From Chitinophagales bacterium (GTDB taxonomy: Bacteria; Bacteroidota; Bacteroidia; Chitinophagales; JADIYW01): a stretch of 64,000 bases of DNA. Position numbers and translations under genes: made by a program. Numbering within the stretch: the first letter of the stretch is position 1; each line of letters opens with the position of its first letter. The stretch covers positions 1 through 64,000 of the forward strand of contig JAIBAX010000016.1 of the NCBI GenBank assembly GCA_019694955.1, written 5' to 3'. Below the pieces are notes generated by a model. That model did not search any database and had not been told where the DNA came from. It worked only from the letters and a program-made list of their open reading frames with translations. Below, in pieces: positions 59,979 through 63,664 of the stretch.

Positions 59979-60079
59979 ACTTATCATCCCCCATTTTACT
60001 GGGTAGGTTTTGGCACCTTTGCGGTAGCTAGGTTGCCAAGATGTCAACGGGCCTAATCCCTCGATCTTTCTGAATAAGT
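59979..60079 (-). promoter_or_regulatory. SAM-I (S-box) riboswitch
   Basis: Read on the minus strand: ACTTAT...ATAAGT closes P1. Core elements are GAGGGATTAGGCCCG, GGCAACC and AAGGTGCCAA...CC, in the order of the S-box consensus. It lies about 50 nt before the split metH start. A downstream AGCACC is complementary to GGTGC in the aptamer and could form the alternative pairing. No U-tract terminator is visible, so regulation is probably at translation initiation. SAM would lower expression of methionine synthase. Confidence 0.95.
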
Positions 60080-60096
60080 TTAACTTAATAATTCAT

Positions 60097-60371: not shown

Positions 60372-61325
60372 ATGAAAATTACTGAAATATTGGCTAAGGC
60401 GAAAGAAACGAAAGTTTCCTTTGAAGTACTTCCTCCGCTAAAAGGGAAAAGCATCCAATCATTATATAATATTATCGATCAGTTGATGGAGTTTAAGCCC
60501 CCATTTATAGATGTTACCTATCACAGAGAGGATTTTGAGTACAAACTGATGCCCAGCGGATATTATGAGAAGGTAGCGATCCGAAAAAGACCTGGAACAG
60601 TTGGGATTTGTGCGTCTATAATGGGAAAATATAATGTTGAAGCTGTACCGCACTTAATTTGTGGTGGGTTTAAGGTGGAGGAAACTGAAAATGCGCTGAT
60701 AGAATTGGCATATCTCGGCGTTCAAAATGTCTTAGCGCTGCGTGGCGATGCCAGAAAGTTTGAAAAAACGTTCGTTCCTGAACCGGGTGGACATAAATAT
60801 GCGATTGACATGGTGAAACAAATGCATGACATGAATGAAGGACGTTACCTTGATTCAGACTTGCATGATGCCTATAAAACCAATTTTTGTATCGGCGTTG
60901 CCGGATATCCTGAAAAGCATTTTGAAGCAACGAGTTACAGAAAGGATTTACAACACCTGAAGAATAAGATTGATGCCGGTGGCGACTATATCGTAACACA
61001 GATGTTTTTCGATAACAAAGCTTTCCTAAAGTTTGTAAAAGACTGCCGAGAAATTGGCATTCAGGTGCCTATTATTCCCGGAATAAAACCTTTGACTAAG
61101 AAAAGTCAACTCAAAACAATTCCTTCAACTTTTTATATCGACATTCCGGATGAGTTAGAAAATGAGATGGAAAAATGTAAAACACCGGAAGCGGAAAAGC
61201 AATTAGGTATTGAATGGTGTGTACAACAGTCAAAAGAATTGTTAAAGGCAGGCGTTCCTTGTTTGCATTATTATACGATGGGAGATGTGAAGACATTGGG
61301 CAATGTGGTAAGAGGTGTGTTTTAA
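60372..61325 (+). CDS. metF: methylenetetrahydrofolate reductase
   Basis: 317 residues. FAD enzyme that reduces 5,10-methylene- to 5-methyltetrahydrofolate, the methyl donor for the split MetH encoded divergently. VSFEVLPPLKG at the N-terminus, PFIDVTYHRE, NVLALRGDAR and the KIDAGGDYIVTQMFFDN and PIIPGIKPL motifs are standard. Normal length. The start follows the -7 box by 21 nt. Divergent pairing with metH via riboswitch and MITE copy B makes a one-carbon/methionine locus. Followed by the rhodanese gene after 26 nt. Confidence 0.95.
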   Translation: MKITEILAKAKETKVSFEVLPPLKGKSIQSLYNIIDQLMEFKPPFIDVTYHREDFEYKLMPSGYYEKVAIRKRPGTVGICASIMGKYNVEAVPHLICGGFKVEETENALIELAYLGVQNVLALRGDARKFEKTFVPEPGGHKYAIDMVKQMHDMNEGRYLDSDLHDAYKTNFCIGVAGYPEKHFEATSYRKDLQHLKNKIDAGGDYIVTQMFFDNKAFLKFVKDCREIGIQVPIIPGIKPLTKKSQLKTIPSTFYIDIPDELENEMEKCKTPEAEKQLGIEWCVQQSKELLKAGVPCLHYYTMGDVKTLGNVVRGVF

Positions 61326-61351
61326 AAATTATTCATTATAAAAGAAATATC

Positions 61352-61657
61352 ATGTATCAAGATTTAGAACCGGAAGATTTTAAAGCGGCTTATGAAAACG
61401 CAGAAAACGCCGTTTTAATTGATGTAAGAGCACCACAAGAGGTGGCTCAAAATAGTATAGAAGGTCATGTTCTTATTAATATCATGGATCCATCTTTTCC
61501 CACAAAAATTCAGGAGTTGGATAAAGATAAAAACTATTTCATCTATTGTAGAAGTGGCAACCGCAGTGGGCAGGCATGTAAATACATGGCAGGCTTAGGG
61601 TTTAAACACCTCACTAATCTGAAAGGTGGTATGTTGGCTTGGGAATTAGCGTTTTAA
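61352..61657 (+). CDS. rhodanese-domain sulfurtransferase
   Basis: 101 residues from the ATG at 61352; the frame is open back to 61214 inside metF but that extension is not homologous. A single rhodanese domain: VLIDVRAPQE and the active loop YCRSGNRSG with Cys66. It carries persulfide sulfur from donors such as thiosulfate or glutathione persulfide. Cytosolic. Start of a five-gene sulfur cluster. Confidence 0.9.
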   Translation: MYQDLEPEDFKAAYENAENAVLIDVRAPQEVAQNSIEGHVLINIMDPSFPTKIQELDKDKNYFIYCRSGNRSGQACKYMAGLGFKHLTNLKGGMLAWELAF

Positions 61658-61670
61658 AATATATATATAG

Positions 61671-62051
61671 ATGAGAGTGTTTATTTCTATTTTTCTGTGT
61701 ACGATTTGCACGGTCTTACTTGCTCAGACAGATGTCAAAACGATTGACCCTGTTGCTTTTCAAACCAAAATAAATTCTCTGAAAAACGAGCAACTCATAG
61801 ACGTGAGAACGCCGGAGGAATTTGCATCCGGACACCTTCAAAATGCGGTAAACATTAATTTTTATTCGAGCGATTTTAAGGAACAACTGGAAAAATTAGA
61901 CAAGACCAAACCCGTCATGGTATATTGTAAAAGTGGTGGACGAAGTGGAAAAGCGGCAATTATTTTAAAGGAATTGGGTTTTACCATAGTATATAATTTG
62001 GCAGATGGCGTGGAAGGTTGGAAAAACAAGCAACTTCCTGTTGTAAAATAA
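61671..62051 (+). CDS. exported rhodanese-domain protein
   Basis: 126 residues. Signal peptide (FISIFLCTICTVLLAQ) then a rhodanese domain with QLIDVRTPEEFASGHL and YCKSGGRSGKA, Cys86 in the active loop. A periplasmic counterpart of the cytosolic rhodanese, positioned to handle sulfur compounds before or after transport. 13 nt after the first rhodanese gene and 1 nt before the thioredoxin gene. Confidence 0.9.
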   Translation: MRVFISIFLCTICTVLLAQTDVKTIDPVAFQTKINSLKNEQLIDVRTPEEFASGHLQNAVNINFYSSDFKEQLEKLDKTKPVMVYCKSGGRSGKAAIILKELGFTIVYNLADGVEGWKNKQLPVVK

Positions 62052-62052
62052 A

Positions 62053-62355
62053 ATGAGCAATTTCAACCATATCATCCAAGACGAAACCCCTGTTTTGGTG
62101 GATTGTTGGGCAGTTTGGTGTACACATTGTAAGCCCGTACCTGAGATATTAAAACAAGTAAAAATCGAAATCGGGGATAAGGTGCGCATCATAAAAATCG
62201 ACATTGATAAAAACCCCGCTTTTGCAAACCAATGGCATGTTCAAGGTGTACCGATGCTCATGTTGTTTAAAGAAGGGAAAATGATTTGGCGACATGCCGG
62301 TGCCTTGCCCGCATCTGTACTCATTGAAAAAATAAAACCATATATAAATCGTTGA
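62053..62355 (+). CDS. thioredoxin
   Basis: 100 residues. Active site WCTHC (Cys23, Cys26) instead of the usual WCGPC, followed by the conserved Pro after a beta strand (VQGVPMLMLF) with cis-Pro. No signal peptide. It probably reduces rhodanese persulfides or disulfides inside the cell in this operon. The altered dipeptide TH may shift its redox potential; this is inference. Confidence 0.9.
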   Translation: MSNFNHIIQDETPVLVDCWAVWCTHCKPVPEILKQVKIEIGDKVRIIKIDIDKNPAFANQWHVQGVPMLMLFKEGKMIWRHAGALPASVLIEKIKPYINR

Positions 62356-62357
62356 TT

Positions 62358-62903
62358 ATGAGCTTTTATAACACTTTGCCTTGGTATGTTGCGGGGCCAT
62401 GTATAACACTTGTTATGTTTCTTTTGCTATATCTTGGAAAGAGATTCGGCTTAAGTTCTTCTTTGAAGACCACTTGTTCTGCTTTAGGAGCCGGAAAGAA
62501 ATGGTCTTTTTTTGATTACGATTGGAAAGCGGATATTTGGAATCTTGTTTTTATTGCCGGCACCATGGTTGGCGGTTTTATCGCCTATCATTTTTTCATG
62601 CCTGAAAAAGCAATTGTATTATCCCAAAACACCAATGAAGCCCTTTCGCAATTAGGCATTTCCAATAATGAAAAATATCTTCCAGACTTTCTTTTGTTGA
62701 AAAATATTAGTATAAAAACAATCATTATTTTGTTGGGTGGCGGATTTCTAATTGGGTTTGGAACCCGTTGGGCAAATGGTTGTACATCCGGGCACGCCAT
62801 AAGCGGATTATCAAATTTGCAATTGCCTTCATTGATTGCTGTAATAGGGTTCTTTATCGGTGGTTTACTGATGACACATTTTCTTTTACCGTTAATTTTC
62901 TAA
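62358..62903 (+). CDS. YeeE/YedE-family sulfur transporter subunit
   Basis: About 181 residues with five or so membrane helices. The pattern GFGTRWANGCTSGHAISGLSNLQLPSL contains the Gly-Cys-Thr-Ser-Gly-His motif of YeeE/YedE (DUF395) half proteins that conduct thiosulfate or related sulfur compounds. An ATG two codons upstream (62352) overlaps the thioredoxin stop. Pairs with the next gene to build the full two-part transporter. Confidence 0.88.
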   Translation: MSFYNTLPWYVAGPCITLVMFLLLYLGKRFGLSSSLKTTCSALGAGKKWSFFDYDWKADIWNLVFIAGTMVGGFIAYHFFMPEKAIVLSQNTNEALSQLGISNNEKYLPDFLLLKNISIKTIIILLGGGFLIGFGTRWANGCTSGHAISGLSNLQLPSLIAVIGFFIGGLLMTHFLLPLIF

Positions 62904-62904
62904 G

Positions 62905-63318
62905 ATGCGTTATATAAGTTATTTCTTAGTAGGCTGTTTTTTTGGCATTGTCCTTACAAAAGCGGAAGTAATCTCTTGGTACAGAATTTATGAAATGTTC
63001 CGTTTCGAATCTTTTCACATGTACGGCATTATCGGTTCGGCAGTTTGTTTAGGCGTTGTTGTTGTTCAGCTTATTAAAAAATTTAGCATTCTATCTGTTG
63101 AAAATGTGCCGATTCATATTGAAGAAAAGGAAAAAGGATGGAAGCGGTATCTGTTAGGTGGTAGCTTCTTCGGGTTAGGTTGGGCCTTGGTAGGTGCGTG
63201 CCCCGGTCCAATATATATCCTTATTGGAGCGGGGTTTGGTTCATTTATATTGGTTTTAATAGGGGCGTTATTAGGCACTTTGTGTTATGGAATCGTTAAA
63301 GGCAAACTTCCTCATTAA
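62905..63318 (+). CDS. YeeE/YedE-family sulfur transporter subunit, second half
   Basis: 137 residues, four membrane helices. GGSFFGLGWALVGACPGPIYILIGAGF carries the Gly-Ala-Cys-Pro-Gly-Pro motif of the second half. One nucleotide from the first half, so coupled. The pair with rhodaneses and thioredoxin forms a persulfide/thiosulfate import and use pathway. Confidence 0.88.
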   Translation: MRYISYFLVGCFFGIVLTKAEVISWYRIYEMFRFESFHMYGIIGSAVCLGVVVVQLIKKFSILSVENVPIHIEEKEKGWKRYLLGGSFFGLGWALVGACPGPIYILIGAGFGSFILVLIGALLGTLCYGIVKGKLPH

Positions 63319-63426: not shown

Positions 63427-63458
63427 TTTGCAAAGAATTAGGATGTTTTTTAACTTTG
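63427..63458 (+). promoter_or_regulatory. promoter of the tRNA-like RNA
   Basis: TTTG (63427-63430), 20-nt spacer, TAACTTTG (63451-63458): a near-ideal -33/-7 pair. Predicted start at about 63462-63464, some 12 nt before the tRNA-like acceptor stem. Confidence 0.8.
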
Positions 63459-63475
63459 CGTCAGTTCTTTAATAT

Positions 63476-63631
63476 TGTGGGGTGATGAAAATGGCAGCCA
63501 TGCCCTCTTGTCTCGGGGGTAGGGGGTAACGAAATAAAATCAGAATAGAGCCCTTTAGTGGGCAGGGGTTGACCACCAACTTTTGTTCTGTATCTAATCG
63601 CCCTGTGGAGGTTCGAATCCTTCCCCTACAG
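63476..63631 (+). ncRNA. tRNA-like RNA with enlarged variable region
   Basis: TGTGGGG (63476-63482) pairs with CCCTACA (63624-63630) as a 7-bp acceptor stem. D arm: ATG/CAT with GG in the loop. Anticodon arm: CCCTC and GGGGG around a 7-nt loop TTGTCTC, giving GUC at anticodon positions. T arm: GGAGG-TTCGAAT-CCTTC. Between anticodon and T arms lie 87 nt (63520-63606) that open with AGGG and close with CCCT, and inside which CAGAA/TTCTG, GCCC/GGGC and GTTG/CAAC can pair. The D arm resembles class II (Leu) tRNAs. Bases recalled as AspRS identity set are present: G73, G2:C71, G34-U35-C36, C38; G10 is A instead. No encoded CCA (GCA). Could be a tRNA-like regulatory RNA, an unusual tRNA, or a decayed tRNA; the intact promoter and terminator argue against decay. 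Not tmRNA: it has an anticodon arm and is too short. Confidence 0.7.
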
Positions 63632-63632
63632 C

Positions 63633-63664
63633 AAAAAGGTCGTTGATTATCAACGACCTTTTTT
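63633..63664 (+). terminator. intrinsic terminator of the tRNA-like RNA
   Basis: Thirteen-base-pair perfect stem (GGTCGTTGA with TCAACGACC plus A/T extension), loop TTA, followed by T run. It begins two bases after the discriminator base. Confidence 0.92.

Follow-up and report, generated by a model that had tools for sequence, protein, structure and literature searches.

Allo-tRNAs are class II tRNAs with 8/4 or 9/3 acceptor/T stems and with non-cognate anticodons that include GUC (PMC7609411, reviewing Mukai et al. 2017), while the tRNA-Other pseudo-tRNA of Bacillus cereus is a tRNA-like RNA reported to act outside translation (PMC3399842). The bacterial identity set for aspartate comprises G73, G10, G34, U35, C36 and C38, and the elements recognised by SerRS include C72 and C11-G24 (PMC9976931).

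The locus analysed here lies in a window of 64,000 nucleotides (i.e., the whole stretch of DNA under analysis, positions 1 to 64,000 of contig JAIBAX010000016.1 from a Chitinophagales bacterium), in which an earlier note, made from the letters alone, had proposed an autonomous tRNA-like RNA. Direct reading and covariance models place a class II tRNA-like cloverleaf of 157 nt, running from U1 to C74, at 63476–63632 on the forward strand.

Architecture of the locus

The promoter, the terminator, all four arms and the 87-nt variable region that had been claimed are each found in place by direct reading (see the features below), as is G73 at 63631; the 3′ end needed correction, however, in that one further C (position 74) is encoded after G73.

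63427–63430 (+): –33 promoter element TTTG, from sequence
63451–63458 (+): –7 promoter element TAACTTTG of the Bacteroidota type, from sequence
63463–63471 (+): boxA-like leader motif AGTTCTTTA; GTTCTT is enriched upstream of copies
63476–63632 (+): tRNA-like RNA, U1 to C74, 157 nt; covariance models R1/R2, homologues, covariation
63476–63482 / 63624–63630 (+): acceptor stem of 7 bp; pairing 100% across the 76 copies, with two-sided changes at 4 pairs
63485–63501 (+): D arm, tRNA-Leu-like by comparison with the genome's own tRNA-Leu; two-sided changes at 2 of its 3 pairs (76 copies)
63503–63519 (+): anticodon arm; 100% paired, CCCUC/GGGGG to CCCGC/GCGGG exchange
63508–63514 (+): anticodon loop UUGUCUC; loop counts across copies
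63520–63606 (+): variable region, 87 nt; sequence, both stems covary
63521–63524 / 63601–63604 and 63530–63532 / 63598–63600 (+): variable-region stems, both covarying
63533–63538 (+): internal loop, 5′ side, AAUAAA here and RAYAAA in the family; conserved, far side closed by a covarying pair (CG/GC/UA/AU)
63594–63597 (+): internal loop, 3′ side, CUAA; CUAA in 74/76 copies
63541–63590 (+): inner domain; closing helix 63541–63545 / 63586–63590, all 5 pairs changed on both sides
63550–63553 / 63560–63563 and 63568–63571 / 63577–63580 (+): inner-domain hairpins
63565–63576 (+): inner-domain motif GGGGUUGACCAC; GACCAC in 99/141 long copies and 0/50 short copies
63607–63623 (+): T arm, loop UUCGAAU; 100% paired in 76 copies
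63631–63632 (+): discriminator G73 and encoded C74; G-C in 76/76 copies, following base not conserved
63633–63664 (+): intrinsic terminator hairpin and T run, from sequence; terminators of relatives differ in sequence

Upstream of the RNA, TAnnTTTG was encountered within 100 nt in 114 of 205 copies (vs. 12 in shuffles), and GTTCTT within the same distance in 56 of 205 (vs. 5.4 in shuffles), mostly 10–20 nt before the RNA. This GTTCTT(T) leader motif, recurrent before many copies, resembles boxA antitermination signals, and such a role might be played by, e.g., the stretch at 63463–63471 of the window. Since the single-sequence fold of the window RNA was not more stable than its shuffles (z of –0.53), the case for structure rests on comparative evidence.

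Conservation and covariation

A DNA search revealed one copy of the RNA in its own genome and homologues at 76–86% identity in six other genomes of the window's family (i.e., seven family sequences in total); five of these six homologues share a comparable chromosomal position close to a rhodanese gene. From these seven sequences covariance model R1 was built, and from 76 copies model R2. Among the seven family sequences, 98.6% of the cells were paired and both sides had changed at 11 pairs; the corresponding values were 97.3% and 27 pairs for the 76 copies, and 98.9% and 15 pairs for a set of 104 further matches, left out of model building. None of 500 shuffles reached the observed value in any of the three sets. 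For 7, 31, 76 and 104 sequences alike, pair counts were higher than in column shuffles by all measures (the observed value was reached in 0 to 2 of 500), and were also far above slid controls.

Across ca. 190 distinct copies, strong covariation was present in nearly every helix, including those of the inner domain. Two-sided changes were seen in the acceptor, variable-arm and inner helices, the anticodon stem was exchanged from CCCUC/GGGGG to CCCGC/GCGGG in one group of copies, and an extra covarying pair closes the conserved RAYAAA/CUAA internal loop of the variable arm. The compensatory changes predicted earlier were thus found for the cloverleaf and the inner domain in the 7-, 76- and 104-sequence sets, and the CAGAA/TTCTG helix suggested for the inner segment was changed on both sides at each of its five pairs. 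Stems are 7/5 (acceptor/T) in the 76-copy alignment, and the elbow nucleotides G18 and G19 and the T-loop UUC are invariant there, so that the RNA has the 7/5/5-stem cloverleaf and the UUC T loop expected of a decoding tRNA.

These data also bear on whether the locus might be a tRNA pseudogene, an intron-split tRNA or an integration scar, as could be imagined from its hybrid of a Leu body with an Asp loop and from the insert in its variable region. Covariation in the 7-, 76- and 104-sequence sets refutes these readings, which are also at odds with the ca. 190 distinct copies covarying throughout and with the kept promoter. An intron would moreover not be expected to vary as widely in length as the arm does between copies (77–211 nt for the whole RNA), making this group of explanations the least credible of all considered. 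The tRNA-like RNA at 63476–63632 is a real conserved RNA, and neither a chance occurrence nor a pseudogene.

The length variation resides in the distal part of the variable arm, beyond the RAYAAA/CUAA loop, and forms of 77–119 nt are devoid of the inner domain. The proposal of a dedicated, autonomous and conserved RNA therefore holds for the RNA as a whole, whereas its inner domain is dispensable for the family.

The inner domain also contains a UUGACC motif, and the window's own genome encodes a TROVE (Ro60-like) protein (G000:C19:30166-30891), which would suit a bacterial Y RNA (YrlA) bound by Ro60/Rsr. Y RNAs mimic tRNA. However, there was no match to YrlA (RF02553) at E<10, the TROVE gene was confined to the window's genome among 13 family genomes and thus missing from the other six that carry the RNA, and the motif is absent from the short forms. 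We therefore rejected membership of the YrlA/Y RNA group, a Y RNA identity being very improbable.

Known-family searches

ARAGORN reported no tRNA and no tmRNA in the window, and Rfam 15, even with permissive settings, returned nothing relevant to the RNA in the window and no RF00023 match, by which tmRNA was dismissed as a candidate. Rfam scans of host and phage copies yielded no family either: RF00005 missed the RNA, while flanking tRNAs were recognised in the same scans and served as positive control. The RNA thus differs from decoding tRNAs in escaping tRNA finders (ARAGORN, Rfam RF00005) that do detect its neighbours. The Rfam search that the earlier note had asked for therefore left the segment without a known family to explain it, and a tRNA pseudogene, tested as well, did not explain it either. 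No published description of the RNA family was found in the part of the literature covered, and cultured phages and plasmids gave no match to the RNA. The family is absent from Rfam 15 and is a genuine and widespread RNA family.

Distribution in bacteria

Among 299 genomes of the order, 200 were matched by model R1 (E≤0.001), although the weak tail of these matches may be ordinary tRNAs. In a scan of 395 genomes of the class with model R2, true members were taken as those at E≤1e-16, nearly all 107–200 nt long, vs. ordinary class II tRNAs of 77–89 nt at E-values of 1e-8 to 1e-15, with few borderline cases in between. Roughly 70 of the 395 genomes held true members (our own count), and a draw from the phylum gave 32 of 296 genomes at E≤1e-16, nearly all from the same class. 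Named contigs belong to Chitinophagales, Saprospirales and Cytophagales, and genera with the RNA include Chitinophaga, Niabella, Dyadobacter, Spirosoma, Algoriphagus, Cyclobacterium, Marivirga and others; tandem copies are common. The covariance search of Bacteroidota genomes advised earlier thus did recover homologues with conserved pairing.

Genomic neighbours

In 74 of 147 loci, spanning Chitinophagales and Cytophagales, the immediate upstream neighbour is an Lrp/AsnC-family gene, always divergent and 112–253 bp away; the next commonest neighbour occurs in 14 of 147. The best NCBIfam model for this neighbour is AsnC, with 155 bits (below the 227-bit cut-off), followed by Lrp with 53 bits. 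In the window's own family, the AsnC regulator is encoded elsewhere in the genome rather than adjacent to the RNA, no diverged RNA copy was found beside the displaced gene, and an orthologue also exists in genomes without the RNA. This displacement, together with the presence of the regulator in genomes lacking the RNA, indicates that the AsnC link is frequent yet not obligatory.

As for the surroundings in the window, a sulfur cluster (61214–63318; two rhodaneses, a thioredoxin and two Sulf_transp proteins of the YeeE/YedE type) lies just upstream of the RNA. A SAM riboswitch (RF00162, 53 bits) at 60000–60080 on the reverse strand precedes two ORFs, presumably the halves of a split MetH. Separately, two odd, low-scoring adjacent tRNAs, one with an undefined anticodon and one for Val, were noticed at G000:C42:82745-82934, possibly borne by a prophage.

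Anticodon loop, 3′ end and identity elements

In a set of 97 copies that were not chosen by anticodon pattern, G34 was present in 92, U35 and C36 in all 97, and C38 in 95, with the five copies lacking G34 being exceptions in divergent Cytophagales. Position 33 is U in the window copy, in 84/97 and in 167/191 copies, and C or G in 13/97, while position 37 is U in 95 and C in 2 of the 97, and a purine in none of the 97 or of the 191 copies. Neither U33 (as a family feature) nor the purine 37 of decoding tRNAs is thus kept. G73 was found in 76/76 copies, and G2:C71 is present in every one of 72 distinct copies. In each of the 76, G73 is followed by an encoded C74, with the next base being free; since almost every tRNA gene of this genome likewise ends in N73-C74, the 3′ end is that of the lineage.

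The window copy therefore shares G73, G34, U35, C36 and C38 with the tRNA-Asp identity set but not G10, for which A10 is found in 70/76 copies of the family. The assignment to the aspartate set in the earlier note stands as far as G73, C38, U35, C36 and G2:C71 are concerned, with G34 (92/97) not being absolute, and U37 and A10, which it had called atypical, are both atypical and conserved across the family. Its Leu-like D arm was confirmed, in that the D arm and the U44/GU linker are arranged as in the genome's own tRNA-Leu genes. LeuRS, however, needs A73. Of the Ser elements, G73 and a large arm are present, yet C72 and C11-G24 are replaced by A72 and U11-A24.

The retention of anticodon and discriminator determinants for Asp next to the loss of decoding features is the main argument for an RNA that might be charged without decoding. 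An Asp isoacceptor reading GAU/GAC despite its odd features, perhaps in special contexts, would account for the GUC triplet in 92/97 copies and for phages carrying the RNA alongside other tRNAs, but sits poorly with the absence of a purine at 37 and a position 33 that is often not U, with canonical tRNA-Asp in the same genomes, and with some N34 variants that would read Glu codons; we consider it unlikely. Moreover, as canonical tRNA-Asp coexists with the RNA in its own genome and in 10 viral loci, the RNA is no replacement for tRNA-Asp.

Against aspartylation itself, A10 replaces the bacterial Asp determinant G10 in most copies, G34 is missing from 5 of the 97 copies, and conservation at U37 matches that at the AspRS positions, for which AspRS alone gives no explanation. 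A long variable arm may also hinder a class II synthetase. The single housekeeping gene was the only AspRS found, the remaining hits being weaker stretches that by their length are probably AsnRS and LysRS. GatB, the marker of tRNA-dependent Asn synthesis, was present in 10 of 13 genomes, both with and without the RNA, and was therefore uninformative.

Phage copies

The anticodon-arm pattern occurs in at least 120 IMG/VR contigs, and the full-length RNA was recovered in 79 of 80 examined viral contigs (E≤1e-19). Representative viral neighbours belong to terminase large subunit, portal, PhoH and exonuclease families, which identifies at least those clusters as phage DNA. Several large viral contigs have the RNA inside tRNA arrays of up to 26 genes, with spacers of 4–11 nt that imply tRNA processing, and in some it lies beside a real tmRNA. 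In 34 of 80 viral loci the RNA stands alone, with no tRNAs in the examined stretch, and canonical tRNA-Asp is present in 10 of 80.

This context suits the main rival explanation, i.e., a translation accessory in which a tRNA-shaped RNA, charged or not, would bind ribosomes, EF-Tu or enzymes acting on tRNA, its variable arm being the working part, in the spirit of tmRNA. While the phage arrays, the tmRNA neighbours, the conserved RAYAAA/CUAA loop in the arm and the kept elbow and T loop all agree with such a role, the 34 solitary phage loci and the strict conservation of G73, GUC and C38, which points to a synthetase, do not, leaving it possible though rather doubtful.

The RNA might alternatively be a decoy or spare target for toxins that cut tRNA or for nucleases of phage defence, with the GUC loop as the feature recognised, as phage tRNAs counter such systems and as copies are found in phage and host and in multi-copy arrays. 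A decoy would nevertheless have no need for the invariant acceptor end, G73-C74 or the covarying variable arm, and C33/G33 variants alter the very loop to be recognised, so that we deem this improbable, if marginally less so than an Asp isoacceptor.

A second phage-borne RNA family on a tRNA scaffold was also observed, with several copies per phage and none in the bacterial loci examined. It has a constant AGUCAGG/CCUGACU-A-C acceptor, a Leu-like D arm, a constant T arm and a hypervariable middle without evident anticodon arm. Its 3′ pattern occurs in at least 120 viral contigs, and some of its copies are scored by Rfam as weak tRNA. Copies are as follows.

Viral locus L296: 5129–5276, 6142–6262, 6477–6616, 7682–7830
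Viral locus L305: 9979–10112, 4587–4706, 4342–4504
Viral locus L309: 4907–5050

Possible function

The conservation, structure, distribution and neighbour of the RNA family are established by the comparisons above. For its function, we tentatively favour a tRNA-like RNA that does not decode, is probably aspartylated by AspRS and acts outside normal decoding, a reading that falls somewhat short of being probable. The RNA belongs to a large undescribed class II tRNA-like family found in Chitinophagales, in Cytophagales and in the phages of both, and it folds with a tRNA elbow. It would be transcribed from its own promoter and presumably cut to size and given its CCA tail by the enzymes of tRNA maturation. 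The cell's single housekeeping AspRS could aspartylate it via G34, U35, C36 and C38 plus G73, and it would likely take no part in normal decoding given that U33 is not kept, that 37 is never a purine, and that its variable arm contains a conserved internal loop together with a large domain. Once charged, the RNA would most likely be an aspartate-charged effector or sensor outside decoding, its transcription in many species possibly being set by the AsnC-type amino-acid regulator. Slightly more tentative still is the notion of a new class of amino-acid-charged, non-decoding RNA that is controlled by AsnC, is included in phage tRNA/tmRNA kits and has a role in translation control or amino-acid transfer.

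The family reveals a sizeable gap in annotation, being a strongly covarying RNA that occurs in many phages and in no fewer than two bacterial orders, yet lies outside Rfam and is missed by the tRNA finder. It further offers a natural test of the charging needs vs. the decoding needs of a tRNA, and its AsnC neighbour provides a concrete way into its regulation. That phages have it in tRNA arrays with tmRNA suggests a benefit to them and bears on why phages carry tRNAs at all, and tRNA-like biology outside decoding may be common in Bacteroidota.

Comparison with known systems

The RNA resembles class II tRNA-Leu, as represented by the genome's own tRNA-Leu genes, in its overall body, its D arm, U44 and the GU linker of two nucleotides that precedes the T arm, and the next-best R2 matches are tRNAs of 77–89 nt. 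It departs from tRNA-Leu in having G73 instead of A73, a GUCUC loop, a U1-A72 end and a much longer structured variable arm, and in being missed by ARAGORN. With canonical tRNA-Asp (GUC) it has G73, G34, U35, C36 and C38 in common, but it differs in its class II body, A10, U37 and long variable arm, and true tRNA-Asp coexists with it.

Allo-tRNAs are likewise class II and count GUC among their anticodons. The RNA, however, has 7/5 rather than 8/4 or 9/3 stems, is Leu-like rather than Ser-like and lacks some SerRS elements, so that an allo-tRNA was rejected on stems and Ser elements; it is also found in Bacteroidota, whereas allo-tRNAs are found in Clostridia, Proteobacteria and Acidobacteria (PMC7609411). 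The tRNA-Other RNA differs in having a Trp anticodon, in being limited to some bacilli and in being part of a longer transcript, and the part of its description at hand mentions no long variable arm (PMC3399842). Finally, tmRNA and the YrlA Y RNA similarly join a tRNA-like domain to an extra domain, but the RNA described here differs from both in its intact anticodon arm and in having neither a tmRNA call nor an Rfam match.
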